Assembly (NCBI GenBank): GCA_027919835.1
Contig: JANVFP010000024.1
Coordinates: 744,001 to 808,000, forward strand
Reading direction: 5' to 3'
Length of the DNA stretch: 64,000 nucleotides
Origin: Lentinula raphanica
Taxonomy: Eukaryota > Basidiomycota > Agaricomycetes > Agaricales > Omphalotaceae
Positions 24,301-44,661 of this stretch are shown one piece after another. Every line of letters starts with the position of its first letter. The first letter of the stretch is position 1. A program made the position numbers and the translations under genes. The notes under the pieces are model-generated. The model did not search any database. It had not been told where the DNA came from and saw only the letters and a list, made by a program, of their open reading frames with translations.

Positions 24301-24349
24301 ACTTCCAATCCCCCTACCTGAGCTCACTGTCAAGGAAGTAGGGGTTATT
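18394..24349. other. Gene-poor region, no confident gene
   Basis: Only short frames occur. On the minus strand between about 22.6 and 21.6 kb there are fragments with hydrophobic stretches (for example VPAVLLLLLLMTTT near 22,250), possibly a decayed membrane-protein gene. Between about 23.5 and 24.3 kb both base composition and short frames differ from the neighbourhood (AT-richer; minus-strand Cys-rich fragment near 23,750), which could be a remnant of a retroelement, but no LTR pair, reverse transcriptase or integrase was found. Confidence 0.3.
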
Positions 24350-24660
24350 AGATGATAGTAGGGGTTGGAGTAGGGGTCGAATCAAAAATTAGGGTAGGGG
24401 TAGGGATGGGTAGGGTAGGGGTAGGGATGGGTAGGGTAGGGGTAGGGATGGGTAGGGTAGGGGTAGGGATGGGTAGGGTAGGGGTAGGGATGGGTAGGGT
24501 AGGGGTAGGGATGGGTAGGGATGGGTAGGGATGGGTAGGAATGGGTAGGGTAGGGTAGGGGGTAAGGTAGGGTAGGGTAGGGTAGGGTAGGGATGAGATG
24601 GGTAGGGGGTAGGGATGGGATGGGTAGGGACGGCTAGGGAAGCCTAGGGATAAGTAGATT
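24350..24660. repeat. G-rich minisatellite of TAGGG/TAGGGG/ATGGG steps
   Basis: Array based on a 21-nt unit (GGGTAGGGTAGGGGTAGGGAT), about seven near-perfect copies from about 24,390 to 24,540, then degenerating into shorter GGGTA steps. The purine-rich, GGGAT/GGATA-like character continues more loosely to about 25,030. One strand has dozens of GGG or GGGG tracts spaced by 1-3 nt, so G-quadruplex formation is likely. It is not a simple telomere repeat because the unit mixes TAGGG, TAGGGG and ATGGG. Confidence 0.85.
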
Positions 24661-26892: not shown

Positions 26893-27396
26893 TCACTCCA
26901 TTGCAGCTTTGCGAAGAATAGGTCGAATGATTTTTTTCCACACGATCGACTGCTTTGAGTTGAACAGGAAAATTTCCCGGTGCGTGTTGCAGCCTTGAAT
27001 GACCCCTAAGCGTTGAGCCTATACAGACGATTAGAACTCACACTTAGGGCAATTGATTCGCGGTCTATCGTAACAGACACGTTCTAATAGAAGGTGCGCC
27101 AGGGCCTCTGAAATTCATAGCTATCGACGAAAGTCTTGGGATCGATGAATTGGTCACGCACCAGCTCTCCTCCTCCTCTTTACAGCTAACGGTGGGAGCC
27201 AATTACGACCGGGGGATCTACATTTTATGTTCCATTGCCTCCTCCTTTGGTGGAAGTTCTTCGACATCCCGATCTTCCATCGACGACTGTGATCCACGAA
27301 TGCGTAGAGGTACCCAGGCCCGTCTGCACGAGACGTTGGACGTGCCTTTCGAGACGCATATAGAGAGCGCAGGACGCGTTTGGATCGCCGGGACAT
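26893..27396 (-). CDS. Small T5orf172 (GIY-YIG-like) domain protein
   Basis: Three minus-strand exons, 27396-27162, 27107-27042 and 26993-26893, join in frame to give 133 residues. Residues 26-75 match the T5orf172/DUF1766 layout related to GIY-YIG nucleases: GPGYLYAFVDH, then RRWKIGMSKNFHQRRRQW, then GRNWLPPL and a run of basic residues. After the second intron it continues with AHLLLERVCYDRPR, CPKCCNTHREIFLF and a Trp-containing end. This is a known mushroom family of short proteins, often many copies per genome; DNA binding or nicking is suggested by the fold but no activity is shown. Start is the first in-frame Met. Alone, with no obvious partner. Confidence 0.78.
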
Positions 27397-27980
27397 GATT
27401 TAGATCACGAGTTGGAGTGGGGAAACCGGGTAGAGTTGGTTTTGGGAGAGTTTATGGTGGTAGAGAGAGCAGCCCTGTGTAGTGTAGGTATACAATGAGT
27501 GATGAGCAGGTCTGTATTGAAGGTTGTGTGCGATGGAATAGGTCCAAAGTGTTTGTGTCGATGGGATCAGTAATTGTTTATGGTCATTTACTTGATGATA
27601 AACTTCATCTTCTTACACTATACTAGCATGATAGGACCTCTAAAACAACACCAACGACTGCAAGACATGATCAAGGGAGCCTAGAGACGACAAGGTGTAA
27701 CTTAGAGGGTTGAAGGCCGTGATGACACGGCCTGCCAACCAACACTTACACATTTGGTGCATAATCCGTTCAGATGAACGGATACCCTTCTTCTTTTCTT
27801 TCCCGCCATTGACTTACACATCCTTCAGTCTCTTTGCGCGTCTCCCGCCTTTTCTGACATCTTCATCTCTATTCTACAACTCTCTCATCTGACATATTCT
27901 CGGAGCTGCCCATCTCTTATTTAGCATCCTCCCTGTGCAGCCTGGCTCACGATGGAAGCTAACACCCCCGCCCTGTTCTA
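27397..27980. other. Intergenic, nothing recognised
   Basis: Upstream region of the T5orf172-like gene and of the following plus-strand frame; only pyrimidine-rich stretches near 27,780-27,900. Confidence 0.4.
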
Positions 27981-28565
27981 GCACCATCTTATTCATTCTC
28001 CGGTGCATCTTCTGCATCGTCTACCTTCCCAAGAGTACTCAAGCGAGCTCTTACCTCTGCTGCCGATTTGGACTTTTTCAAGCCAGCAGAATCATCGTTC
28101 AACCCACGTCCTTATACTCCCAGCGCGAATCCGCTATCCGGCACTCATTCTAAGAACAGATACAATCATCTCTCGCGCCATACCACTCGACCCGAAGTTC
28201 ATGTTATCCCTCCTGCCAGTATGGATCCATCGCCTACTGACCCCAACGCCGTTTTCATTCATCCACCATTCAATAATTTTCCCAATGTGCAAGATTTCCC
28301 CGAAGGATTGACGTACAAAGTCATGGCCGATAATCCGGAATGGTTCTTGGACGCTGCTGACTTTATTCGCGTCGAGGAGAATTCATCAGAAACATCACCT
28401 TCAACCGATCCTCAGAGACCATCGTTTCTCGGCTCGTCTTCACCTCGTTTAGACGTCCTGAATGACGGTACACATCCCAGCAACCTTTTTGTTGTGCTAG
28501 GCCCTCGGCTCCGCCCCTCCCCCTCCCCCCGTTTTGTACGTTCGTCCTCGTTCGACACTCCCTGA
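27981..28565 (+). CDS. Unrecognised Ser/Pro-rich protein, ends near transposon
   Basis: An open frame runs from a possible acceptor TTCTAG at about 27,980 to a stop at 28,565; the first Met inside it is at 28,068 (165 residues from there). The visible part includes RVLKRALTSAADLDFFKPAES, an NPRPYTPSANPLSG region and DPNAVFIHPPFNNFP..EGLTYKVMADNPEWFLDAADFIRV, which looks like a conserved core flanked by disordered sequence. The last 25 codons run through a C-rich tract and are probably not the native end; a splice site or an insertion-related truncation before the transposon at 28,700 is likely. Function unknown. Confidence 0.45.
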   Translation, partial: APSYSFSGASSASSTFPRVLKRALTSAADLDFFKPAESSFNPRPYTPSANPLSGTHSKNRYNHLSRHTTRPEVHVIPPASMDPSPTDPNAVFIHPPFNNFPNVQDFPEGLTYKVMADNPEWFLDAADFIRVEENSSETSPSTDPQRPSFLGSSSPRLDVLNDGTHPSNLFVVLGPRLRPSPSPRFVRSSSFDTP

Positions 28566-28691
28566 TCGCGATCTCCTCATCCTCGGTTTGTATACTTTTT
28601 TTTGGCTTTTCCCTTCCTCAAATTCAACATCTTGGCTCGTCTACGCATATACAACGGTGCCCATCTTCTGGTCTAAGTTCCTAACTGTGTT

Positions 28692-28699
28692 GTCCTTTA
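28692..28699. repeat. 8-bp target-site duplication, left copy (GTCCTTTA)
   Basis: Identical to 35110-35117, directly abutting the terminal inverted repeats of the transposon. Confidence 0.9.
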
Positions 28700-28717
28700 A
28701 GGACCCCGGAAAATCCG
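28700..28717 (+). repeat. Left terminal inverted repeat of the transposon
   Basis: AGGACCCCGGAAAATCCG, perfect reverse complement of 35092-35109. Inside it, to about 28,860, lie several copies of an AATTCGGCC-type subterminal motif. Confidence 0.92.
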
Positions 28718-28972
28718 GAAAGAGCTCTCATCCTGAGTTGGCCAAATTCGGCCTTTCCCACGTTCCCAATTTGGATAAAATTCGGCCATTTCCACGATAC
28801 CTCTGACCAAAATTCCAAAATTCGGCCCTTTTTGGGATCATACCTCTTCTCGAGCAGCAAACACCTTACGCCCTCTTACGATCATGTCAAAAACATTGTA
28901 TTAGACTACAGAGGCTCAGTAGAATGTCAATTAGAAGTCAATTCACCCGCTACACCATTGCCAGCAGCCGCC

Positions 28973-31900
28973 TCAATTCATAGCAGCCGCCTTGCGTTTA
29001 CCATGAGGCGATTGGTCCTCTACAATTGCCTTGGCAATTGCGACCAGCTCTGAGTGTTGCGGTTGTAAGTCCCGCAGGAGCACATCGAGAGATTCAGGAT
29101 ATTTGACCAAATATAACTGTGGGGCAATTTCGACGCTTCCCGGTATGTCTTGGACCTTTGTGCATAGCATTCCTGTATGTGTCGATAGATTAGAATCTAG
29201 GGAAACAATGAGATTGGCCGAGCGCAGGAATGCAAACGAAGGTGCTGGACGGGAAACGTTCTCGACTGTTGCAACTTGTGGTGATAGATAACCACCGAAG
29301 TCGGTATACAGTTGGACAACGAGTCGGGAAATAGAACGAACATCCGTGGAGTGTGGGGTGTAATTATGGGTGGTTCTTTTGAGTCCGCCTTCATGATAGA
29401 TCACCTTAACTAAGACAGCTATATGAGACGACGTTGGTAATGATAAGCAGTGATACACACCTTGTCCAACCCATAACTTTGCCTGCAGCATCACAATAAC
29501 CCACGAACCTTGTCTGAGCGGTCGGAATTCTGAGATTCCAGCAGACACCAGTGGGAGGCGGGTTCTCCTCTCCAAAATTTCATAGCGAGCTCTTCCTTTT
29601 CGTGGCGTTGCGAGTCTGGTAGTTATCGATTTGTTTTGGATATTTGTTGTGGGAGTCGTGGCAGCAGGCGTCTGTTCCTCCGGAATTGAGAGACCAGGTA
29701 TTCGTAGATTTTGCCAACGGGCTCGACGTTCCATGCCAGATACAGAGGTGACATCCTGTGTGAGATTAGCTGATATCAATCGGGTGATTTCGTTGACTAG
29801 TGCAGCTTTGAGTGGTTTGGTATCATAAGACTCAGACTCTGTGCCAGAGTCGTTGACCGCCGGACATTCTATCTGCTTTGTGATATCTGCATGACGGAAG
29901 CGAGACGCGATTGCAGTCTTGGCCTCTTGTGTTTCGTGGGCTTCCCGCAATGATACGAGTGCGGAGTATTTGAAATTGTTTGATGTTCCGAAGTCGGTAG
30001 CTTTCTTGGCAGCAAGAGCAAGCAGAGCATCGCGATCCGTGGTCTGGAATATATGAACACATGTCAGACTCCATCTTTGCTTGACCGATCATATACGAAG
30101 TGGTTCAGACTCACCATCAATACAGTGTTTGCTTCAGGCTGTTTGCGTCGTTCTTGCTGTACCTTCTGCATCTCGAGAGCAAGGTCTTTGATCGTGCTCA
30201 TCCAGCCCTGTTGGTCTTCATCTGAGAGCTCCGGTAATTCGTCTCTGTAGAAGCATTAGGGAAGGGAACATGGCACAATTATTCTCGATTTGGCACTCAC
30301 ATGCGAAGCGTGTCATATATGACTGCTGATGCTGCAGCAGCTCCTAGATTTGCCATTCGCGTCTCATGTAGATGAGGAAGGATATGCTGTTGTTCATCAT
30401 CAATATCGGTCTGCAGTATACGCTCGAGGATGGTGTCGACTGGAATGTCATCTAACGAGTCATAGTGTACAGCGCCGACACCATTGACCTTGCTTTCCTC
30501 CGTCATCGCAGCTAATGCTTCTTGCAGTCCCTGAGCCATGTCTTCTGTCTGCGAACCCATATAGTCCATACCAAGTACTGCAAGAAGTCGTTTCGCCTCG
30601 ATAAAACCGACATCCATAGCTTGCTGGAATTCTACGTCGGTTGGAAATGTGGCTAAATTCTTGAGATCGACGTTTGCATTGTCGTACCAGGAGTGATGGT
30701 ATCCCGAACGATGACTGCTAGCTGAAGCTTGAGTCTGTTTGAATTTCGCCGCACCATTCATGATGAATTCCACCTTCGGTTTCATCAAAATCCAGTCCGC
30801 GAATGTGAAATCCTTCAGACCGGGGATACTGGTTCTACCGACTCCGAATATGTGTTCGCAAACCTCAGTCGAATGAGACCACGGGGAGCAGGGAACGTTG
30901 GGAAAGTAATCCCGATGGATTAGTGGGAGCATCAGCATACTCGAGATGAAGATTGAGAGAATATCATAAAGGTCCCGAGTGATGAAGTGCGTGTTGATGT
31001 TATAGTGGGGATGTCGCTGAACATAACTATGCCAACCTTCGAGAAAGAAGCGACCTCTCCAGAGCATCTTGACACGTTCCACATGAGAGATGGTACGGTT
31101 CTGCTGCGCATCAATGATTTCTCCGATGACAAAGAGGTAGATAGTGGTGCCCAGCTCATCCGGCAGTATCTTGGAAATGTACTGAATGACCGAAGCAGAG
31201 AACAGTCTAGCAGCAGCCCTGTCGTCTTGCTTATCAACACCAATGATATCGGCCTTCATGAGAGGTGTATCGGGGCCTTCTGCGAGATGAGCAAGTTGAC
31301 CGTAATGTACGATATAGCGACCCGGACAAAGAATACGAGCACCACTAGTTGCGCTTCCTCGTCCATTTTTCTTCCCATGTTTACCATCAGACGTGACTAC
31401 TCGAGGCTTCCCGTTGGGCAAAAGCGGAGCTTTCAACGTGATTTGTTGACCCTCGGCGGCAGGGTGAGAGAACGACCACATACGACACTGCTCAGATGCA
31501 AGGGCTTCATCTACTAGATCGTGTCCCAGACTACGCTCAGTTTGAGCACCATCGACATTATATGATATGTGATGAAGCCCTCGCTCCTGTAGCTTCTTCT
31601 CGATTTCGTCATGCCAGCTACGCAGCTCTTTGGACGTGACCGAGCTTGCGATTGCAACCGTAGCGATCATCTTCGGTGGAATTCCCGGTACAGGGACAAT
31701 CAGCATCCAAACCCGAACCTGTATATAGAGCAATGAGATTACCAACCATGAACTGACATGGAGTAAATGTCACCTTTTCAGCTAGATTCTTACGCTCAAT
31801 GTCTCTCATCTCCAACAACTGCTCGTAACTCTTGAACCTTCCCATGCATACCTGCCAGCTTCCAGGTGTCACCATCTTTGTATGAGCGAAGTGCTCGGGT

Positions 31901-34747
31901 GAGTTTGGTGTCATCGACCGCAAGTGCCAAAGGACCATCGTATCCCATTCCTTTCACCCATTCGAGAGCGTCATCGAAGTTCTTGTCAACTATTCCAGGC
32001 TGGAACCGTCCGTGCTTACTTCTGAGTTGTCTATTTCACGTTGCATATCAGCCATTGAAGGTATATGTGATTACTTCCACAGAAAGCTACTTACCTGACT
32101 CCACGGAGAGTTCGCCCACCAAGTTCTCCTTGTACAAGATTATAAGCACGAGCCGACGTTAAGGCCAGCGTTGTCATCAAATGGTCGTACTCCGCCGGGT
32201 ATTTGATGTTCTGTAACCCCTTGCCTTTATGTTGCCGTTGTTCGATGATCATTGTTGTTTCGAGTAAGCCCTTGAACACCTTCATTCCTTCGTAACGATC
32301 TTGGAGTGCCCGTTTGGTGAACTCAAAGTACATCTTGTTTCCCTACAAATGAAAACGGTGTTGAGCAAGCTGTGACTGCTCATATATGAAGTAGCATACC
32401 ATCTCCATAAGCCCCCCAATATCTTCATGCGCAAGAAATACTGATCCCAAAAGAGGGTTTCGAAACTCGCGAGGCGTGAACTTCATGTTTTTGTTTTCTG
32501 GTGCCGTTCTCTTCAACGCATTTTGGAAGATTTTGATTTTCGGGACCGTAAGACAATTTGCACAGACTGGTCCGCCAGAAGGTTGTATTGTAATCGTTCC
32601 CAGACAATTTTTGGAGAAGACAGCATTGAGATCATGTCGGTTGACCCATTGCGAAAGTGCCCACTCTTTCAGCCTGATCTCCTCCTTCGACGGTGTATAA
32701 GCCTTCGAAGCCTGGCCTCCTTTCTCATGCTCAGAAATGAGTATCTGTTGTATAGTGGAACGATGAGGAGCACCGCCGTTGCCCATTTCAGTACGAGAGA
32801 GATAGATAGGAATACGTGGCTCGATTTTTGCAGTCAGGCCAGTACAAGCCACCGTCACAAGTGGAGCAGGTTTAGAAGGAGCTGTTGCTGTCGGAGAGAG
32901 GAAATGACTCAAACCAAGTTGCCCAGGGTTGGTACTAGAACACCTTTGAGATTTTCGATGCTGCTTATAGGGATCAACAGAGTTCTTGTCATCACGAAGA
33001 CCAACAAGTTTCCGACATCGTCCACAAATCAGGATCCTGGAATCTGTACGATGGAAGTCGGTATTTGGATCGATCGCACGTATTTTTGTCATGAATCTCT
33101 GGAAGGTTTTCTCAGACCACCACCACGGATTGGATGAGGTCTTGAAAGCCACTTGTGTCAGCATAACGAATTCATGATCGACTCAATGTACTCACTATGG
33201 TAGGACTCGATGTTTTCTCTTTCTTCACAGCCGTTGCTTGAGGCTTCGGTGTCAGCTTCCCGTGGCTTTGCTGAAGGTTTGCGACGTCGTGTGTTTCAGA
33301 ATCTGTGTCACTCTCTACTGAATCAGAGTCGTGTTCGTGTATGTTATGTGTAGCCTTGAAAAAGGTGCGGTTCCGTAATGCTGTATCATTTTGAGCAGTG
33401 GCCGTGTGAGAATTTGAGTGCTTTTGGCTCTTTAGGACTGCCTCCATCTCGACCAAAACATCCATTTGTTGCTCTGCCAGCTGTAGCGTTCAATATGTGA
33501 GTATTCATCCACAGTCTAAGTCTTTCATGACTTACGTTTGTCCCTTGGAGGGAACTCACTACCAGGTTGAAAAGACGAGCTCTTCCTTCCAACGCTCGAT
33601 CCGGATTCCAAGTACATGCCATCGAGCGAGAAACTTCATGCCACATTGTCATCAGCATTCCAACGCCGCAGGAGAATGTATCTTTCTGCTTCGCTATGCT
33701 ACTGTCTTCAAGGATCTGCGTCCATTGTGACCCCGGGAAATACTCTCCCAGCCACCGCTCTAAGCACAGTAATATTCCATCCAGGTGAGCAGCTGTAACT
33801 TCTGGCGCGGTATCGTGAACCTGAATAACCTTCTGGTTGGTATCCACCGTAAGCCATAGCCAGTGGAGGTTGGTGATGTTCCAAGGTAGATGAAGGATGG
33901 TTAGATCGCCCGCTCGAAGTTTATCTCCCCAGTGAGTGGGCCGTTGGCTACTGCACATCTCCCCATTGACCACAGGCATATATTTTCTTTGTAGAAACTC
34001 ACAGAGAGAACTCTCCGTGAATGCTTGCTCGAAATCAACGTTAGGATCTGCAGCGGGGGCGCCAATAGCGTTCAGGACACAATCGACTGTCTCGCCAGTG
34101 ACCCATTTAGAAGACAAGAGAATTTCGGCGACATGTCTGATGGATACGATATTTCCTCTTCCAGTGATGGTGCCCAACTGCCAAGGTGATTGGAGAATAG
34201 CGCACTTGCTCGCTGACAGCAAATCTGAACACCATTCTTCCTTCGCGGCTGTTCGCTCGACCCATTTGAGCCTTTCTTCCCAGAACAGCTTTGATCCAAG
34301 GAGAATGCCTGCCCATTTCCAGGCTCGTACGGCACCTAAAGGGAGCAGAACATTGTCTTTGACTGGATGCCTCACTGACCGACACTTTTGCTTGACGGCC
34401 TTTCGCAGAGCTTCCCCATCAAGCACCGCACTTTGTCGCAGAGATGGAATGACCAACAGCGCAGGGTCAAGGTTGAGCTCTGAGTTGGGTTCTTCCTTAC
34501 TGAACCACTCGGAATCCTTGACGTAGATTCGTCGGCTCCCAGGGCAGTTAGGCATGGCCATAGAGAGAAGGTTTGAGACAGAAGTTGTGGGATGGATTTT
34601 TAGGGACGAAAGGAGCTCCGGCGAGGGCTGAATCTGTTCGAGGATGTCATCGTCACTGCGCTCGTCTATCTCGATGGAGTCTATAGTTAGGCTCATGGGC
34701 GCACTCATGGATTGGAAAGAAAAATAAATTTTTGTTGAACTGTACAT
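28973..34747 (-). CDS. Fused C48 protease, zinc module and DDE transposase, frameshifted
   Basis: Eight minus-strand exons: 34747-33536, 33480-33196, 33140-32400, 32342-32095, 32030-31774, 31718-30301, 30244-30115, 30043-28973, about 1,786 residues if the shift is ignored. Seven intron joins keep the frame, so it appears to be one protein. Order: C48 Ulp1-type cysteine protease with H295 (NLHWLWL), D312 (VHDTAP), Q354 and C360 (KQKDTFSCG); a coiled, acidic linker; a C538-x2-C541-x18-H560-x5-C566 zinc-binding module after a WWWSEKTFQRF stretch, probably DNA-binding; an RNase-H-like transposase with D868-D869 (LALAVDDTKL), NVDGAQTER, SDGKH, DKQDD and STEVCEHIFG; then a C-terminal domain of about 350 residues. 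Oddity: around 31825-31840 the frame shifts (exon 32030-31774 is one base out), with a few codons seemingly missing between KVQEL and SYEQLL. A second start, MSAPMSLT, is 13 residues further in. Confidence 0.82.
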
Positions 34748-35091
34748 TGGTCTATGAGATTCGCAAGTGCTTTCGTTGTGGCGGTAGGTAGTGATGCGTG
34801 ATGATTCAGCTATTACAGGCTATTACATTTTTACTGTCGAGACAGGTCGAGACGATGACTAGCAACAACTACCTTCCACTGCAGGATACATACAGCTTAG
34901 TTCCTTAGACCTGGTCACCTCAGAGTTGAGATTTTCAGCCCTTTGGCATCATACCTCACCAAGAATTGCCTATTTCCAGCCTTTTCTGGGACCATACTTG
35001 ATGTCCCAAAAAGGAAATGAATCGGCCTTTGGCACTATACCTGAACGTCAAATCAGGCCAAAATTCGGCCATTCCGGATGAGGGCAGGTTG

Positions 35092-35109
35092 CGGATTTTC
35101 CGGGGTCCT
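35092..35109 (-). repeat. Right terminal inverted repeat of the transposon
   Basis: CGGATTTTCCGGGGTCCT, perfect inverse of the left end at 28700-28717. Confidence 0.92.
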
Positions 35110-35117
35110 GTCCTTTA
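35110..35117. repeat. 8-bp target-site duplication, right copy (GTCCTTTA)
   Basis: Same 8 bases as 28692-28699; removing the element and one copy restores a reading frame of the older transposase. Confidence 0.9.
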
Positions 35118-35853
35118 CCGTCAAGTTCGAGAAATTGCCTTACAAAAAGGACCACTGTACAACCGAGATGTAGGGTCTAATTCAGACAAACAAGACGACA
35201 ATGCTGCTTTACGGTTCTGTTCAGCTAACACGTTAGAGTGGCTTGTTTCAGGTGAACACTACTCCGACGAGAATATCGGACTGATTGTCTATATCTTTGT
35301 TTTCGGCGAGCTCATCGATGCTTTTCAAAATCGAACAATATCCCTTATGGAGCGCGCGCGTATGGTTCTCAGGGCGTATTTCTTTCTAAACATCTGGGAG
35401 AAATTTCTCGATGTCGCTGGATATCCCAAATCCAAATACTTCCTCTCTCGTGATTCAATCGACATTATCCGGATCTGGATTCGTGGATTCTTCCAGATCA
35501 TCTTCATCCATCGTGATCATCTTCCCAAGCAACATCCAGTGTTTCCTCATATCATTGGCACTAGCATTTGCGAGCATGTCTTCGGAATCAGTCGAAAAAT
35601 CGACCCCGATTTTACCATGTACAGTTGGTACATTCTCCTGCCCAAGATCATGCTCATGCTACGAAATGCAGTGCAACTTTCAGAGCAGGGAAAGGATGGA
35701 AAGGCTCGTGCCAGAGGGTACAATCACAGCTATCTGGACCGACGTGGGATCGATGTCGCTGCCCTCTCAGCATTCCCTTCTGATTCCGAGCTCGACGATG
35801 CCTCCAGAGCTGCATATGATGATGCTATCAGCTTGTTCTCTCTACTCGGTTAG
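35110..35853 (+). pseudogene. C-terminal half of an older, related transposase
   Basis: From the insertion point a plus-strand frame of about 246 residues runs to a stop at 35853. It aligns motif by motif with the transposase of the inserted element: DKQDDNAALRFCS, VFGELIDAFQNRTISLMER, YFLSRDSIDIIR, IIFIHRDHLP, STxICEHVFG written here as GTSICEHVFGISR, DFTMYSWYILLPK and GYNHSYLDRRGIDVAALSAFPSD. The frame's first Met (35,017) lies inside the younger element and is an accident. Upstream of the insertion only about six codons (PNCVV before LYRQVRE) can be matched in the left flank, so the N-terminal part and the D-D region of this copy are missing or separated by an intron. It has no C48 protease visible. 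A dead relic. Confidence 0.8.
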
Positions 35854-36020
35854 GTGGGTCAGGACCCCTGAAAGTCAACTGAAAAGTCGTTTCCGATATT
35901 TTCTGAAATAGGTGGTTTTTTCCGGGACATGATTTCGCCCAAACTTTCCGGGACATTGCCTCACACGTCTGTAGACTACCAAATTCTCCGGGACAGTGTA
36001 TCATAGGTCAAATTTTCCAT
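35854..36020. repeat. Probable 3' end of the older element with TCCGGGACA repeats
   Basis: Right after the stop of the older transposase, TCCGGGACA occurs three times in 65 bp (35931, 35946, 35987), each followed by a different word. This looks like the subterminal repeat region of the older element, comparable in position to the AATTCGGCC repeats of the younger one. Its terminal repeat could not be paired because the other end was not found. Confidence 0.5.
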
Positions 36021-36369
36021 GTATCACCACCTATGACATGCTCTATTAGACTATTACTCCAATTCATCTTCTCTCGCCTTCCGTTTCGATGTAGAGAGTT
36101 TTTGAGTGCCAGAATCTGAGCCCCAAGACTTTTATGAAGCTGTTCGTCCGGACTCATCACATATATATATATATATATCTACTATAGTAAGCATCTAAGC
36201 GGCAGAACATTAGAAATTAAGTCACTCTCATATGAGATGGACATGATTCACCAAATATGCCCTTAGTACTCATCCTGCTTATTCATGCTAACCTAACACC
36301 TCTCTCCTATTTCTCTTCTGCACCTCAGTCACAGTTCACCCTAGGAAAAGGCTAATTGTGCCTTGTTAG

Positions 36370-36580
36370 AAGTTTGAAATAATTATTGCTTCACCGAGTT
36401 ATTCTATATGTACCACAAAAGGGCAATATCGCCTTGCAAGGAGGTTTGGACATCACTTGATGCACAGGGTGTGGTACAAAAATAACATTCTGCCATTCTA
36501 AGCCTACCAGAAGACATTAATATTGCCTGATATTACTTGACACATAGGGCGTCCAGGAAGGACCAATATTGCTCTGTAAG
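36370..36580 (+). repeat. Dispersed ~80-bp unit, forward copies
   Basis: Two to three degenerate copies of the unit described at 43342-44661 (CTATATGTACCACAAAAGGGCAATATCGCC; GACACATAGGGCGTCCAGGAAGGAC). They run directly into the 18-bp minisatellite. The stretch from 36,021 to here holds only an (AT)n run near 36,163 and nothing coding. Confidence 0.7.
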
Positions 36581-36974
36581 GTTAACACACAGGCCCACGT
36601 GAACACACAGGCCCACGTTAACACACAGGCCCATGTTAACACACAGGCCCATGTTAACACACAGGCCCATGATGTTAACACACAGGCCCATGATGTTAAC
36701 ACACAGGCCCATGTTAACACACAGGCCCATGATGTTAACACACAGGCCCATGTTAACACACAGGCCCATGTTAACACACAGGCCCATGTTAACACACAGG
36801 CCCATGTTAACACACAGGCCCATGTTAACACACAGGCCCATGATGTTAACACACAGGCCCATGTTAACACACAGGCCCATGATGTTAACACACAGGCCCA
36901 TGTTAACACACAGGCCCATGTTAACACACAGGCCCACTTTAACACACAGGTCCACGTTAACACACAGGCCCACG
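36581..36974. repeat. 18/21-bp minisatellite, 21 units
   Basis: Twenty-one consecutive copies of GTTAACACACAGGCCCAT, of which several carry an extra GAT (21 bp). First and last units have C in place of T in the final step (CCCAC). Because all unit lengths are multiples of three and lack stops, long frames stay open on both strands (for example NTQAHV and LCVNMG repeats); these are artefacts. GTTAAC is itself a palindrome. Confidence 0.95.
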
Positions 36975-37079
36975 TTTGCTAAACAGACAGCCGTAGGGTT
37001 GGTTTTTTTTTCTTTTTGCTGCAAGGTTTGCTAAACAGACAGGTGTCTGTGTTTGTGTTAAGCAATATTTGTCGTTTCG

Positions 37080-37740
37080 CGGTAAGGATAGACTGGCAGA
37101 ATGCTGGCCTTCCAGGACGCCCTGCGTATCAAACTACATCCAGGACTTTCTCCTGGTGGAATGGCACCATCCTGCCCTTCCAGGAGGCCCTGCGTGTCGA
37201 ACAATATTTGCCCTGTTGTGGCAGGTATAGACCAGCACGATGCTGGCCTTCCAGGACGCCCTGTGTATCGCGCTACGAGAGGCGATGTTACTCTCTTGTA
37301 GTGGGAATGGAATAACAGGATCCTGTCCTTCCAGGAGGCCCTGTGTGTCAAGCAATATTTGCCATTTCGGTGGTCGGTAGCGTGTCAAGCATTATGCAAA
37401 TTTCTTGCGGGGCAATATTGCCGTGTTAGAGTAGGTATGGAATAGTCAAATGCTTGTTTTGCCTTATAAGAAGTTCCAAATATTGCTTCATCCTGTTATT
37501 CTATACCTACCACATAAGGGCAATATTGCCTTGCAAGGATGTTACTTGATACACAGAGTGTCCTCGAAAGACAGCAATAAGCATCCCCTTATTCTATACC
37601 TACCACAAATAATGCCATGATATTGCTTGACACATAGGGCGTCCCGGAAAGACCAATAGTGCCTTTCAAGGAGGTTTGTTGATTGCTTGATACATAGGGT
37701 GTCCTGGAAAGACAGCAAGGAGTATCAGTTGAGAGGAGAT
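37080..37740. repeat. Dispersed ~80-bp unit, inverted then forward copies
   Basis: From about 37,090 to 37,420 the unit is in reverse orientation (CTTCCAGGACGCCCTG occurs repeatedly, with GGTATAGACCAGCA); from about 37,430 to 37,720 it is forward (CTATACCTACCAC, CAATATTGCC, GGGCGTCC). The switch makes a large imperfect inverted repeat. No gene is seen from here to 38,848. Confidence 0.75.
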
Positions 37741-38364
37741 GATACAGCCTTTTGAGCTTTAAATTGGGATACGAACGAGAGAAATATTAGTGCATCTGTT
37801 ATTTTTACTGTAAGGAATTGCAGCAGCAGCGCAGAGTGTGTGTTTCCTTACTGCAAGGTATTGGTGGGTGGTTGTAATCAAAATAGGCATTGCCACTACG
37901 ACGGAATTCCAGTAAAGAAGGAATTGAGGAGTGAGCTTCCTGTATGGATTGCTGCAGAAGTAGCTATCTTCCTTTAAGCTCACTTGTCCGTTCACAATTT
38001 AGCCTAGGTGGTCCTTGGGGAAGTCCTTCCAGGACGCCCCTTCTTTCGCCTTGTCGCCTGCAATTTTTCTTTTTGAAACAACTTGGTGGTCTTGTGGTGC
38101 GTACTACATGACAAGCTTCGTACGAAGTCCTCTCCATCAATGCTAACCCTTTTACATTCAAATCTGTTGTGGTAGTACCCTGATAGTATCTAGCTCGGTA
38201 CTCTTTGCAACAAGAATGGGGTAACACGCCTTGCAAGGCGCCCTCAGGGCTGGGTATAATAGACCTTTTCCATCCAAGATTTACCCCTACAGTAGTTGAG
38301 CCTGTCCTTCTACGACGCCTCTTGTTTTTTTGTGTTGTTTTATGTGCAAACACCCAGGGGGGAC

Positions 38365-38430
38365 ACCGGGCTGGACTTCGGGGAAGCCGGGACGAAGTTC
38401 GGGGAAGTCGGGACGAAGTTCGGGGAACCG
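38365..38430. repeat. 21-bp minisatellite, short locus
   Basis: About three copies of GAAGTTCGGGGAAGCCGGGAC (reverse orientation of the array at 52845-52965). Flanks differ, so only the repeat itself is shared. Confidence 0.75.
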
Positions 38431-38848
38431 AGCCGGGCTACGGAGTGGGACGACATGAATGAATAAAATACAAGTTTTACTCATATGCAATAAGAGTTTA
38501 TTCACCAGATACAAGTTAGTGCATACGCTTCTTGAGGCAAACTGTAGTTTCGTTTCTTACGGTCCATAAAGGTGGAGAAATCACTCATTTCTCAAAAGAT
38601 TACACTCGTGTCATAACATTCGCCAAAACAGTTCTTCTATTTTACCCAGGCTTTCACCTCAAATTTTACACAGGACATAAAGAACAATAAAAGTAAACAA
38701 AAAGGGTAGAAACACAAACATGTACATGGGAATTCGAGGGATTTTTATGAGCTACATAAGTAAAATAGTCCAAGTCCAAAGCACATTTCAGTGATGAATC
38801 CACGTCTCGAGATATAGATGATGGACTGTACAAAAATCGGTCCTTAGA

Positions 38849-40493
38849 TTAGATGTGACAAAGGGGGCACTTCCAGTCCTGCTCAATGGCCGGCAAGACT
38901 GCCATCATCGACTCGGCAACGGCTTGAGGCGTCGCTCGCGAGCCCTGCTCGTAGGAGAGCGCCCAAGTGTTCGCCCAATCCCCCCCAGGAAATCCCTGCT
39001 TCGGTTTCCATTTCGTAGAGTGGAGAAAGTGATTTCCGGTAACGAGCCAGCCATGGACTCCTGCAGCGTGGCCGTGGGGATACAGCTCCTGCTCCCATCC
39101 TAAACCTCGAAGGATGGGAGCCTGCCGCAAAGCCTTCAGTATCTTGGGCGGACTATCCTTGGCATTCAAGTTGGTGTTGCTATGGTTGGTGGCATGACTT
39201 GCTACCCGAATAGGTGGCAGATAAGTCACTGTGATCCTCCCAAGATCCTTGGTCTCCTCGCTCTCTGCATCAGCATCAGTCTCTCCGTCCCCATTGTCCC
39301 CATCGTCGTTCTGGTCCTCGATCTCACTTTCCCCGTCGTCGTCGTCGTCGTTCTTATGGTCCTCATCCTGCTTTGGCCCCTCCTCATCGACGTCCATCTT
39401 CTCCTCCTGACCCTTCTGACCGAGGTTGGTCATATTATTATCCTTATCCTTTCCAGCCTTTGCAACGTCACTGGTGGCCGGTGAAGGAGGAGTACCTGCA
39501 ATCGCCGAGGATGTGCGTTGGCGAGTGGAAGATGGTACAACATGCGCAGGTCTTGAAGATGGAGGTGCTGGCGAAGGAACTGGGGGAGGTGTCGACGAAG
39601 GAACTGGGGGAGGTGTCGACGAAGGAACTGGGGGAGGTGCTGAAGACAGTTGATGTCCTGTTTGTGCTGGCGCCTCAAGAGAAGATTTGTCTGCAGATAC
39701 TTTTGTGACAGGTTTTCCTCCCTTAGCTTCCTCCGGATCTGGCAATGGGTCCACATGAAGGATACAGAACCAATGACGGCATCCCTGACAGTATACCTGA
39801 TAGCACGTATCGGGATCATATATATGCTTGCAGACATTGCATATATTGTCGAACCAGCGTCCGTTTCCCAAGACATCCAGACGACCAGTCTTGGTACTAA
39901 GGAAAAACCGATAGAAATACGCTTTTGCTGTAAGGAGGTGAAAATCGACATCTTCTATGTCGTCTGTAAGGAGATGTAGGCCAGCCAAATCTACAATAAT
40001 CAAGTTCAATAGCAGGCTTGATAGAGGGATATTCTGAGTCCTTACCTAAAACGTCCCGTTCGTCGATGATTCCTTCAATGTCCGTGTCGACAAACTCATT
40101 CTCGGCTAACCCGGCGATGAGTTCTGGGGGATACCCAATTTTGCGGAGGTACTTTTCAATTTCGGTCTTTCGAAGGAACCACGTTACGAGGACTTTTATC
40201 TCTTTGTTGATCTCAAGGATGCCTCTGATTGTCCCATAGGACAGAAGTTCACGTTCACGTTTGAAATTAGAGAGGCGATTCTTGATGCAAACTCTGAATG
40301 GAGAGATTGGTGAAACGGCTTGAGTCGAACTGAATTTGAGATTTACATACACGTCATGTAGTTCGATCGATGTTTTTTTGCCCTCCTCGAAGTAGAGTGT
40401 CAAGGATGTTCCCTTGTCACGTATCCGGGTGGCGGACTTGTTGCTCGGGCGGTATTTCCTTGTGTCGAGATTGATTTTGACTGGGGCAGGCAT
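38849..40493 (-). CDS. BAH-like plus Cys-rich zinc-finger protein, copy 1
   Basis: Three minus-strand exons, 40493-40351, 40293-40046 and 39990-38849, give 510 residues without a break. Residues 1 to about 170 resemble a BAH module (VLVTWFLRKTEIE, NEFVDTDIEGIIDE), a fold used to bind nucleosomes or chromatin proteins. A Cys/His cluster follows at 181-210 (CNVC, then YCQGC and HWFCILHV), PHD-like. Then come a PPPVPSST repeat, a Lys-rich segment, an acidic D/E tract and a compact C-terminal domain (VHGWLVTGNHFLHS, SYEQGSRATPQAVAESM) ending in KCPLCHI, another possible metal site. The same architecture and intron positions recur at 48616-46892 and, for the 5' part, at 63456-64000, so this is an expanding family. 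A chromatin role is inference from the BAH-PHD pairing. A TATA box lies about 40 bp upstream of the start. Confidence 0.78.
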
Positions 40494-40498
40494 GGCGC

Positions 40499-40601
40499 AT
40501 TCTAATCAACTCGATTTTGGCTGGTCTTTTATATGAGTCGTGAATTCATACTCAGAAATGGAGGTTTGTGATATGTCCAGAAGGACAATTATGTGACGAA
40601 T
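40499..40601 (-). promoter_or_regulatory. Upstream block conserved between BAH copies 1 and 2
   Basis: About 100 bp directly upstream of the start, nearly identical to 48620-48733. It contains TATAAAA on the minus strand (40533-40527), about 35-40 bp before the ATG, and a shared segment AGAAATGGAGGTTTGTGATA on the plus strand. Duplication carried the promoter with the gene. Confidence 0.5.
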
Positions 40602-40888
40602 AGAAGCAATAGAACGGGGATGATCGAGGATTCAGGAAGATGATGAAACGAAGTTTACCCACGAAATCACCTCTTTTTACGTGAAACTTACGTACGATTG
40701 AGTGAATGGATCACACCCGGCTCCACCGGTGTAGGTCCCAATCGGCACAGTCTGTTCTACTCTGTGAACGCCCTCCCCTGAGATTCTTCTATTTCCATAC
40801 ACACTACTTCAGGAAAATATATATACCTTTTACATATTTACAGGTATGTTCTTGAGTTTTACGCTCCTCACTCGGCCAGGTCACAGTA
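40602..40888 (+). promoter_or_regulatory. Divergent spacer with TATA box for the TEA gene
   Basis: Space between the BAH gene (minus) and the TEA gene (plus). TATATATA at 40818-40825 is 64 bp before the TEA start codon. Confidence 0.4.
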
Positions 40889-42508
40889 ATGGCCGACAGA
40901 TTTCCCGATAGCCCTTCGTTTGTTTACAATGAATCCTCCACGGATTTCTATCGTTCGACATTGGAATCAACCTCTCCCTTTAGTACTACAGCAAAATCTG
41001 GTTTGACGCCGCTTCGAAAGCACCACAAACTTCTGAAGGACGGCTCAGGTAATGAAGTTTGGCCCGAATCTGTGGAAAATGCATATTCATAGAAGGTAAG
41101 TATAGATGTCGGATGTTCAAAGCTCAGCCCTGTTTCCGACTATGATTGTTATTTGCTAACAGGTCTTCGAGCGTACACTCAGCCTCGACTGGTTCGCAAA
41201 ATCACGCGGTTAAAATTTCAGACGCTGCTGTACGCGGTCGCTCTCGCTTGCGTAATGCTTACCTTGTAAAGTATCTCGTGCACTATGAGATTGAACGCAC
41301 CCGGAAACAAGTTGCGTCTCATCTACAAGTGCTCAAGAATATGTGGAGGGCAGAGGGGAACTATGCCAGTGATCGCGTTTGAGGGTATAGATTGAAAAAC
41401 AACATTTCAATACCTCGTTATATCATTTCATTCAAGTTGCTCCGTTTTGCTGAATGATGCGGCGTAGACTTTTCCCTTGTCGTGGGTTCTGATTCTTTGT
41501 TAGTGTTGCAGACACAACCGTCCAACTCAGAGAATACAGCTAGTCGACGGCCTTCTTCACACTCTGTTTCCTCCACATCCTCTGGTTCTTCCAAGCTATC
41601 TTTCGCAACGGCCTCGCCGCAAGTATGGTCTAGGACGATGACATCGCCGAATTCGACTCTGGGCTCTTCTGTAAACTCTATTCCCTCTGGAGTACGAGAA
41701 CCTTACGAGGCACATAGTAGAGCATTGCAAAGCCCAGATGTCCAAAGTGGTGGCTTCCGAACAGTCGCAGGAGATGGATTCTCAATTTCTACAGCAATGG
41801 AGCTACCGTCAGGGATGATTCCTCTCACTGTCAATCTTGAAAAGCTCCTCGGAAGTGGTGTCGTGTCTTTACACTTGCAGCTAGACGTTCCTGATTTCCA
41901 GGCTGTCTCCTCTTCCTTCGAAGCGAAGACCATACAACCTGGTTTCACCGCTAGATTAGAGGCCGTTTGTCCAGTGGGAAGACACACATCGGCAATATCA
42001 TGCAAATGTATCACGTATGTGTGGGGTCCTACAAGCTCGCATGCCGACTGTTCTTTCCAAGTGGGAGATCCCATGGCGTACAAGAAGGAACCAATATTCT
42101 ACGAATCATCTATGTTGCGCCGAAAATTGCCTTCTATGATGCAAGGCTCTACTCACACAGAACCGCATCAACCTTTGGTATGCTTGAGCAAAGAAGAGGC
42201 TGAAATCCAAGCAGACATCTTGCAGTCAGAACAGGAAATATCGACTACTGCTTATGGACAGGTGACGATCTTCAACTTTCCAGAAAGTGTGCTGCCTACT
42301 TGCCGCCTGTTTGAGCAAGGTAAGTACTCTGATTCTCTTTGAACAATCTTTCATGCATATCTGTTTTTATGCTGTAGGAGCAATGATGATACAACAAGAA
42401 ATATGTTTCGCGGAACAGACAATTCTGTGCACGACATATAATCTAAATCGACACGCCAGCCAAATGATGAATTGGCTGTGCTGTATTGTTCACGAAGTAC
42501 AGCAGTGA
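40889..42508 (+). pseudogene. TEA/ATTS-domain transcription factor, disrupted in the TEA domain
   Basis: TEA/ATTS proteins (yeast Tec1, Aspergillus AbaA, animal TEAD) bind CATTCY-type sites. First half of the domain: LRKHHKLLKDGSGNEVWPESVENA in exon 1 (from 40889). Second half: RGRSRLRNAYLVKYL and ERTRKQVASHLQVLKNMW around 41,245-41,355. Between them the frame is broken: the exon with VENAYS meets TAG at 41,089 just before a perfect GTAAGT donor (41,095), while EGLRAY-like sequence after the acceptor (41,162) is in yet another frame. The rest looks healthy: a Ser-rich region and a globular part from about 41,500 to 42,318 (LTVNLEKLLGSGVVSLHLQLD), an intron, and a final exon 42,378-42,508. Either a recent pseudogene, a sequence error, or splicing I cannot resolve. 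Confidence 0.6.
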
Positions 42509-42789
42509 TGTTTGAGCATCACTTTATTGGACCTGGCTGGGGTTTTTGAATATGAGTGAAAATGAGTGTACATACAACTCGGGTGATGCGAGTTCCATTC
42601 TCGCAGTGGACATCGGGCTTGTACTCCATTTTACTGGGAGCGGTGAGTTTGGAGCTATTTTACTGAACGGGACAACCACCAGAGTTGGGACACACAAATA
42701 ATCGGACAAGTAGCACAACGAAACTAGTTCGGTTAGAGGTCGCGCGAACAGCTTCCCTGCTAGTGACGCCATTAATGGTACTTTTATGC
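42509..42789. other. 3' flank of the TEA gene
   Basis: No gene or repeat recognised. Confidence 0.35.
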
Positions 42790-43341
42790 TACAAGCTCCT
42801 GCAAATATATACCTACGACAAAAGGGTGTCATTAACTTATTACCTTGTAAGAAGCCTCTCGAATACTACCAAATACGCAGTGAGTCCAGGAAGAACAGCA
42901 TCCAGCTATCCCTACCACAAGAAAACAAGTTTTTAGGTGTAGCTTGGCAAAAGGGGCATCCAGGAAGGACAATATCCTGTTATTTTATTCATACCACACC
43001 ATTGCAACAAAGGGCGTTCTGGAAAGACAGCATCCCGCTATTCTACGCCTACCATAAAACGATGATATCACCTTACAAGAAGTTTCGAATCTTGCTTGAT
43101 ACTCAGGGCTTCCTGGAAGGACAGAATCATACTAATCCATACGTACCACAATAAGCCAATATTGCCTTGGAAGTTGGTTTTGATATGACTTGACATTCAG
43201 GGCATCCACAAAAGTGTTGAATATTGCCTGGCTAGAAGTCTTGGATATTGGTTGCCGCAAAGGGTATGCGTCTTGGAAGGACAGCATCAGGCTGACATCC
43301 TATTCTTACCACAAAAGGATAAATTGGTGTAAGAGATACCG
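42790..43341 (+). repeat. Dispersed ~80-bp unit, degenerate forward copies
   Basis: About five to six diverged copies of the unit at variable spacing: GGGCATCCAGGAAGGACAATATCCTG, GGGCGTTCTGGAAAGACAGCATCCCG, GGGCTTCCTGGAAGGACAG and so on, separated by CTACGCCTACCAT and GCCAATATTGCCTT blocks. Confidence 0.7.
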
Positions 43342-44661
43342 TATCTTACATTTATATGTGCTGAACGAACAGCTCGGTAGATCATAGACCGCACAATACA
43401 GTCACGGAAGAATACTTCAAAGTAACCTCGTATTGAATTTGCGCTCTGATCAACTCCCATACACTCATTTGGCTTCGAACTGACCGTGTGTACTTGCCGA
43501 ACAATCAATAATTAATCTTCTCGACTGGGCACACAGACAAGCCCTTTTGGTCTCTGTTAGCTCCTGTTATGAAACTGTTTTCCTTTCTTCGTATGACAGG
43601 ACGCTGTGATTCTATCTACAAGAAAGAAATATTGCCTTAATATTACTTGACACAGAAGGCGTCCTGGAAGGACCACATCCTGCAGGCTGCTAATCTATAC
43701 CTACAAAGAGGTTTGACTGGAAGGACGACATCCTGGGATCCTATGCCTAACACAAAAAAGCAATTGCTTCGATATTGCTTGACACATACTAGGGCGTCCT
43801 GGAAGGACATTATCTTGCTGTTCTATACCTACCACAAGAGAGTAATGTTACTTTGATATGACTTGACGCAGGGGGCGTCCTGGAAGGGCAGCATCCTGAG
43901 ATGCCATGCCTACAGAAAGAGTGCAATATTGCATTGATATTACTTGTCACATAGGGCGTCCTAGAAGGACAGCATCTTGCAATTATATATCTACCACAAA
44001 AGAGCAATATTGCCTAGATATATTCACACCATTCAAGGGTGTCCTAGAAGGGTCCGCATCCTCCTATTTTATACCTACCACAAAGGGCAATATCTTGGAA
44101 ATTGCTTGATACGCAGGCTGAGGTTGTCCTGGAAGGACAGCATCATGCGATCCCATGCTTACGAGAGCAATATTGCCTTTTGCTTGGGACATACATAGGG
44201 CGTCCTGGACGGACAGCATCCCGCGATTCTAGCTCTACCACAAGAGAGAAATATTGCCTTGACATTACTACATAGGGCGTCCTGGAAGGACTGTAGAACT
44301 CTTGGATATTGGTTGCCTCAAAGGGCGTGCGTCTGCATTCTGATATCCTAGTCTTGCCACAAAAGGATAATATTGGCTGGCACTGAGTTTGAAATTTTGC
44401 TTGACATACAGGGCATCCTGGAAGGACAGAGTCACACGATTTTTCTGTTGCAATATCTTGCAGCAAGAAAAACGCCTACCTTGCGCCTCTATACAGCCCT
44501 CTTTGTGTTAATGCTGCTGCAATTCCTCCCCGTTCAAAACCAGTGTGGTCGTCATGGATGATGGTACCAACTTTAGCATCCCTAAGTCTTGAGTAAAATT
44601 AATTTTAGGGCGGTCTATCATCTACAGAGCTGTTCGTTCAGCACATATAAATCTAAGATAA
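43342..44661. repeat. 1.3-kb block: ~80-bp satellite framed by 52-bp inverted repeats
   Basis: 43342-43393 and 44610-44661 are inverted copies of the same 52 bp with about five mismatches, both containing GCTGAACGAACAGC. Between them, from about 43,640 to 44,430, lie about ten copies of a unit with a period of roughly 75-88 bp. Consensus blocks: GGGCGTCCTGGAAGGACAGC, then ATCCTG, CTATACCTACCACAA, GCAATATTGCC and TTGATATTGCTTGACACA. GCAATATTGC is a perfect palindrome, and GTCCTGGAAGGAC can form a 5-bp stem with a 3-nt loop. Nothing coding is convincing. Inverted ends suggest the block moves or was amplified as one piece. Confidence 0.7.

Follow-up and report, generated by a model that had tools for sequence, protein, structure and literature searches.

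Known mainly from animals, P transposition depends on GTP, cleaves with a 17-nt stagger and serves as the textbook case of cut-and-paste movement. The P superfamily (Drosophila P, THAP9; 6p5a/6pe2; PF21787/PF21788/PF21789/PF12017) has in common with the element described here an HTH, an RNase H core, the residue order D-D-D(2)H-E and an 8-bp target site duplication (TSD). Ulp1-type proteases are described from other transposons. In Ginger1 with Ulp1, as presented in PMC2836005, a DDE transposase and an Ulp1 protease likewise share one protein; unlike our element, however, Ginger1 has a Gypsy-integrase-like core and a C-terminal protease, and the table of that paper gives it for animals only. 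Mutator-like elements with Ulp1, as treated in the same paper, are also DNA transposons, but with a Mutator transposase; for them it gives plants, hydra and lancelet as hosts. The authors of PMC2836005 suggested a role of the Ulp1 domains in transposition or repair. Fungal KDZ elements (PF18758) resemble ours in their hosts and, following the account in PMC12730594, in the 8-bp TSDs made by Zisupton and Dileera; a profile similarity to our element, in contrast, was not found. For a P-like transposase and a SUMO-type protease in one predicted protein, we found no earlier description.

The element, a 6,410-bp DNA transposon, occupies positions 28700-35109 of the window, i.e., of the whole stretch of 64,000 nucleotides that was analysed. 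Its termini are of the AGGACCCC type, with perfect 18-bp inverted repeats (TIRs) at 28700..28717 (plus strand, AGGACCCCGGAAAATCCG) and 35092..35109 (minus strand), and the 8-bp TSD GTCCTTTA flanks it, without assigned strand, at 28692..28699 on the left and 35110..35117 on the right. The sequence-only reading had placed TIRs and duplication at exactly these positions. By a crude estimate, such a pair of TIR and TSD has a chance expectation of ~5e-7 in 64 kb. Inside the left end, three ATTCGGCC repeats start at 28746, 28780 and 28820 (28746..28827, plus strand), and a fourth at 35063 lies close to the right end. The element contains TTCGGCC four times, in each case no more than 250 bp from one of its ends (shuffle mean 0.046). 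We regard the subterminal ATTCGGCC repeats as candidate transposase-binding sites.

The gene lies on the minus strand and starts at 34708 or 34747; residues of the predicted protein are counted here from 34708. Between its eight exons lie seven introns, all GT-AG and 40-71 nt long; intron 2 can be spliced in frame in two ways, from donor GTACAT (40 nt) or from GTGAGT (55 nt). Exon 1 (33536..34708; minus strand, as all exons) encodes, judged from family profile and codon positions, an N-terminal Ulp1/C48 SUMO-type protease with the catalytic codons H282 (33865-33863), D299 (33814-33812), Q341 (33688-33686) and C347 (33670-33668). Exon 2 (33192..33480, with its 3' end at 33192 or 33196 by splice solution) encodes an acidic, low-complexity linker, and exon 3 (32400..33151, 5' end at 33151 or 33140) a C2HC zinc module (C530, C533, H552, C558) together with a second Cys cluster. 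In exon 4 (32095..32342), an HTH-like stretch, SARAYNLVQG, stands opposite GPRAYNHLYK of the P element in the hhalign column match. The first RNase H part, with D1 = D860 (31915-31913), is in exon 5 (31774..32030), whereas exon 6 (30301..31718) holds D2 = D965 (31553-31551), D(2)H = D1020 (31388-31386), the insertion domain and, from homologue model and alignment, E1194 and E1197 (30857-30855). After exon 7 (30115..30244), exon 8 (28973..30043, stop codon at 28973-28975) encodes a C-terminal domain that is beta-rich by AlphaFold prediction and for which PDB comparison gave no clear match. Zinc module, RNase-H-like core and C-terminal domain, all named in the sequence-only reading, are thereby located in exon 3, exons 5-6 and exon 8, respectively. 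Compared with its two sister copies, on C9 and C21, the window copy lacks 8 bp of exon 5 between 31830 and 31831, and this deletion breaks its gene. The C9 element is otherwise identical (0 mismatches) and its gene is open, all eight exons reading without a stop over 1,781 or 1,776 aa, depending on the splice chosen. The C9 copy hence bears out the earlier claim of one gene with eight exons joined in frame; the single shift reported with it is real, but is a deletion private to the window copy and present in neither C9 nor C21.

Homologues were gathered as a set of 78 proteins (18 plus 60 new, P0079 left out). They come from Mycena, Favolaschia, Trametes, Ganoderma, Lactarius, Russula, Amanita, Coniophora, Schizophyllum, Paxillus, Coprinellus and other genera, which for all rows but P0076 we take to be Agaricomycetes. 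Conservation was counted in an alignment of these 78 with C9, in each column where a residue was present. The protease region is found in 62 of the 78 homologue models, which are gene predictions from many species, within the same protein as the transposase; it is absent from 16, some of these partial. Among the 62, the H/D/C triad is intact in 56. In the zinc module, the first position is C in 45 or H in 15 of 63 rows, and positions two to four are C (62/64), H (64/66) and C (48/55). The family profile matched yeast Ulp1 (1euv) at 3.6e-14, and human SENPs were matched as well. PF02902 was listed at E up to 10 for 12 of 19 rows (best 1.6e-12) and at E up to 1 for 15 of 28 rows (best 4.4e-10). 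Taken alone, the window protein reached only an E of 0.016 against PF02902, below the Pfam cut-off; its identity as a protease therefore rests on the family and on the triad. Both marks of a C48 protease, profile match and catalytic His-Asp-Gln-Cys, are present, in agreement with the sequence-only reading, whose H295, D312, Q354 and C360 are our H282, D299, Q341 and C347.

From the gene structure we infer that protease and transposase are translated from one mRNA. They might instead be two neighbouring genes of one transposon, fused only in prediction: without splicing, the exon 1 frame extends to a stop at 33386-33388 and could yield the protease as a product of its own, the linker has a low-complexity sequence, and the homologue fusions are themselves gene predictions. 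However, the GT-AG intron 1 keeps the frame, C9 is open through the whole length of the gene, and the fusion recurs in homologue models of many species. Moreover, the C11, C12 and C28 relatives have the protease upstream of the transposase on the same strand and in the same order, and we consider two genes improbable. If the enzymes form a single chain, as predicted, the protease could also cleave the element's own polyprotein and not SUMO conjugates. To this we give little credence, as the exon 2 translation, inspected by eye, has no Gly-Gly and the matched solved relatives bear names such as Ulp1, SENP or deubiquitinase. We favour deSUMOylation as the putative role of the protease.

As a stand-in for the window protein, an AlphaFold model was built of homologue P0017 with 14 homologues. 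Its mean pLDDT is 66.7, with ~80-95 in the core, and the five models ranged from 52.6 to 66.7. D324/D325 lie in strand 318-327, D434 directly after strand 427-433, and D484 directly after strand 477-483, with a long run of helices following it; E659/E662 belong to helix 659-671. When this model was compared with folds in the PDB, P-element transposase came out on top by a wide margin, and no other superfamily was near it; the closest fold was not the hAT transposase Hermes. At the profile level, hhalign aligned A1 (19 rows) with A3 (24 P-family proteins) over 397 columns at an E of 1.3e-8 and ~16% identity, in the order HTH, D1, D2, D(2)H, DKQDD...LFSA / AKQKV...LFSN and, last, the helix with the final Glu. 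For the D-D-D(2)H-E alignment, the P residues were taken from PMC8230255. The core alone scored 99.2 (E 2.1e-11) versus at most 21.6 in 61 decoys, i.e., 59 column shuffles and 2 reversals. The E value was 4.5e-14 with 73 rows and 1.3e-9 when the P side consisted of 13 of its more distant rows, whereas the protease part, serving as negative control, gave 0.42. Among the homologues D1 is kept in 70/71, D2 in 73/74 and E1197 in 60/63 rows, and D(2)H in 74/75 (Asp) and 73/75 (His).

Pfam models PF21787, PF21788 and PF21789 had no match in the 47 family rows scanned. The P-element HTH model PF12017 was found in 1/19 and 2/28 rows, the best match (P0066, E 5.5e-4) being under the Pfam cut-off and covering residues 361-400, before the D1 motif at 437. 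An HTH ahead of the core is hence seen in the hhalign coverage, and only weakly by Pfam alone. Fold, core profile homology, D-D-E and D(2)H in P order and the 8-bp TSD all agree with P, and the P/THAP9-like character proposed from motif order emerges strengthened, with P as the top fold and a core profile score far above decoys. The element is very unlikely to belong to KDZ (Kyakuja/Dileera/Zisupton), although Zisupton and Dileera TSDs in fungi have the same length and the genome holds at least 158 KDZ transposase profile matches. None of the matches listed lies inside the element, PF18758 was found in 0/47 family rows, and a CxC3 match in 1/28 rows (E 0.27) is at chance level. With a KDZ profile of 2 rows only, the hhalign score was ~18, i.e., at decoy level, and both fold and profile fit P. 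At the sensitivity used, absence of PF18758 and the decoy-level score refute the KDZ reading. The sequence-only reading had named a clearly better profile match to KDZ or hAT as an outcome that would speak against P; P is ahead of KDZ in the profile comparison and of hAT in fold.

Nevertheless, the element is not a canonical P: it is without THAP, has AGGACCCC ends, and most GTP contacts are replaced. THAP (PF05485) was found neither in the 47 rows scanned nor in the window protein, while P itself did give a match; a review, PMC7776569, describes THAP as restricted to animals. Unlike P, the element carries the C2HC zinc module in THAP's place, the N-terminal C48 protease and the C-terminal beta-rich domain. 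In contrast, a similar helical insertion separates D(2)H from E, of 192 residues in P and 177 in the element. P contacts GTP, as listed in PMC7776569, through D528, K385, K400, V401, S409, F443, D444 and N447. Paired by reading off the hhalign alignment, seven of these align and K385 is unaligned. S409 is kept in 69/70 and D444 in 67/68 rows. K400 and V401, however, are both Asp in 70/71 rows, D528 is Glu in 55/61, F443 is mostly Ile or Val, and N447 is Gln or Glu. As most contacts are changed, the GTP site of P is not conserved in the family, and GTP use by the fungal enzyme appears doubtful.

We hence place the element either in the P superfamily, as a branch of it in fungi, or beside it as its sister; the SUMO-type protease at the N-terminus is an addition. 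It could also form a separate superfamily, sister to P and not inside it, with common fold and D-D-D(2)H-E order but without THAP, the GTP contacts and the ends of P. We take this possibility seriously without preferring it. In a 36-row tree, 28 fungal rows split from 8 P rows at 100/100 on a branch of ~5.4 changes per column, and the mostly changed GTP contacts and low profile identity point the same way; yet homology is detectable over HTH, RNase H and insertion domain, no other superfamily is close in fold, and rank is partly convention. Only tentatively may we speculate that the element represents an undescribed, Agaricomycete-wide lineage of superfamily level, sister to P, with AGGACCCC ends and 8-bp TSDs. 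THAP/GTP end recognition would have been lost or never had, K400/V401 would have become a near-invariant Asp-Asp, a captured SUMO protease would counter SUMO-dependent silencing during transposition, and the C4 family would be the pre-capture state.

The C4 family has two copies, C4:739046-745301 and 795208-801463 (L034, L035), of 6,256 bp, which are 1 bp apart over this length and have different TSDs; it has apparently moved very recently. With the element it has in common AGGACCCC ends, an 8-bp TSD and a homologous transposase (hhalign E 3.4e-36), whereas its TIR is 33 bp long. No C48 protease was found in C4 by tblastn with six queries, and the same queries also missed C4's own upstream exons. 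In the 36-row tree, C4 branches outside the remaining fungal rows (84/86, with a long-branch warning).

Whether inside P or beside it, the element very probably represents an autonomous transposon family of the cut-and-paste type, found in Agaricomycetes. The one protein that it encodes would combine, in this order, an Ulp1/SENP-type C48 protease, an acidic linker, a zinc module of C2HC (BED-like) type, an HTH, an RNase H core with a P-like large helical insertion, and a C-terminal beta-rich domain. Zinc module and HTH may bind the subterminal ATTCGGCC repeats and the AGGACCCC ends. The D860/D965/E1197 site would then cut the ends and join them to the target with an 8-bp stagger; the 8-bp TSDs are observed, the chemistry is assumed. 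In the weakest step of this scheme, the tethered protease might strip SUMO or a related tag at the donor site; its substrates would be host proteins of chromatin, silencing or repair, or else the transpososome. A P-fold branch in mushrooms with a changed GTP site makes the GTP need of the P fold testable. It also raises the question why unrelated transposons, Ginger1, Mutator-like and now P-like, repeatedly join Ulp1 proteases. Furthermore, many mushroom proteins labelled hypothetical or 'ubiquitin-like protease family' would gain a name.

The host genome (assembly G000, 49 Mb, 75 contigs) contains three full-length copies, the window copy (C24), C9 and C21. Flanks and TSD are common to all three, which therefore go back to a single insertion that was duplicated together with the DNA around it. 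Identity between C9 and the window is 99.87% over 27340-36581 and 99.80% over 36734-44197; for C21 it is 99.79% over 27605-35563. In the C21 copy, a nonsense change interrupts exon 6 and 1 bp is deleted; an open gene is thus present in one of three full-length copies, C9, all within one duplicated block. This block, window 27340-44197, recurs on C9 (99.8-99.9%) and partly on C21, each near a contig end. The element copies lie 40 kb into C9, and ~2.5 kb (C21) and ~35 kb (C24) from the end. Such positions suggest that the duplication may be subtelomeric; the contig end pieces read contained no telomere-repeat array. A search for an empty insertion site found none.

Past mobility of the family is shown by ends and TSDs. 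The same 18-bp ends occur at C3 (4,012 bp) and C25 (3,311 bp), each with its own perfect 8-bp TSD. At C27:431157-450796 (L027, L028), an insertion of 19,640 bp, of which ~15.6 kb were compared with the element, has ends with one mismatch each and its own perfect 8-bp TSD, CGCTCAAC. Shorter derivatives and C27 hence give three further 8-bp TSDs. In the stretches read, the C3, C25 and C27 insertions match the element near the ends only and therefore look non-autonomous. Fifteen loci, most chosen for facing AGGACCCC-like ends, were scanned for TSDs with at most one mismatch. Fourteen contained an element with an 8-bp TSD, 15 elements in total, and all 15 TSDs were perfect; at L058, no element with an 8-bp TSD was found. 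L049-L057 are short MITE-like elements of 374-1,320 bp with AGGACCCC ends, 8-bp TSDs and several end types.

The element most likely inserted into an older, decayed relative of its own transposase gene, as judged from homologue alignments to the right flank and to the joined flanks. By tblastn of 12 homologues, remains of such a gene lie at 35110..35850 (plus strand). Six of the 12 match from 35110-35116 on, and six from 35005-35050, just within the element's right end. With the element removed, one TSD kept and the flanks joined, 9/12 alignments begin 52-76 bp left of the junction, 2/12 inside the TSD and 1/12 to its right; joining raises the score by no more than a few bits, and one stop lies in the left part. 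Elsewhere in the window, a low-complexity Pro-Thr repeat ORF lies at 24348-24659 (minus strand), and a 398-aa ORF at 38849-40045 (minus strand) combines a stretch rich in Cys and His with long parts that are acidic or proline-rich. At 36517-37030, a minisatellite-like array is open in several frames, with peptide repeats of the Thr-Gln-Ala-His-Val-Asn type.
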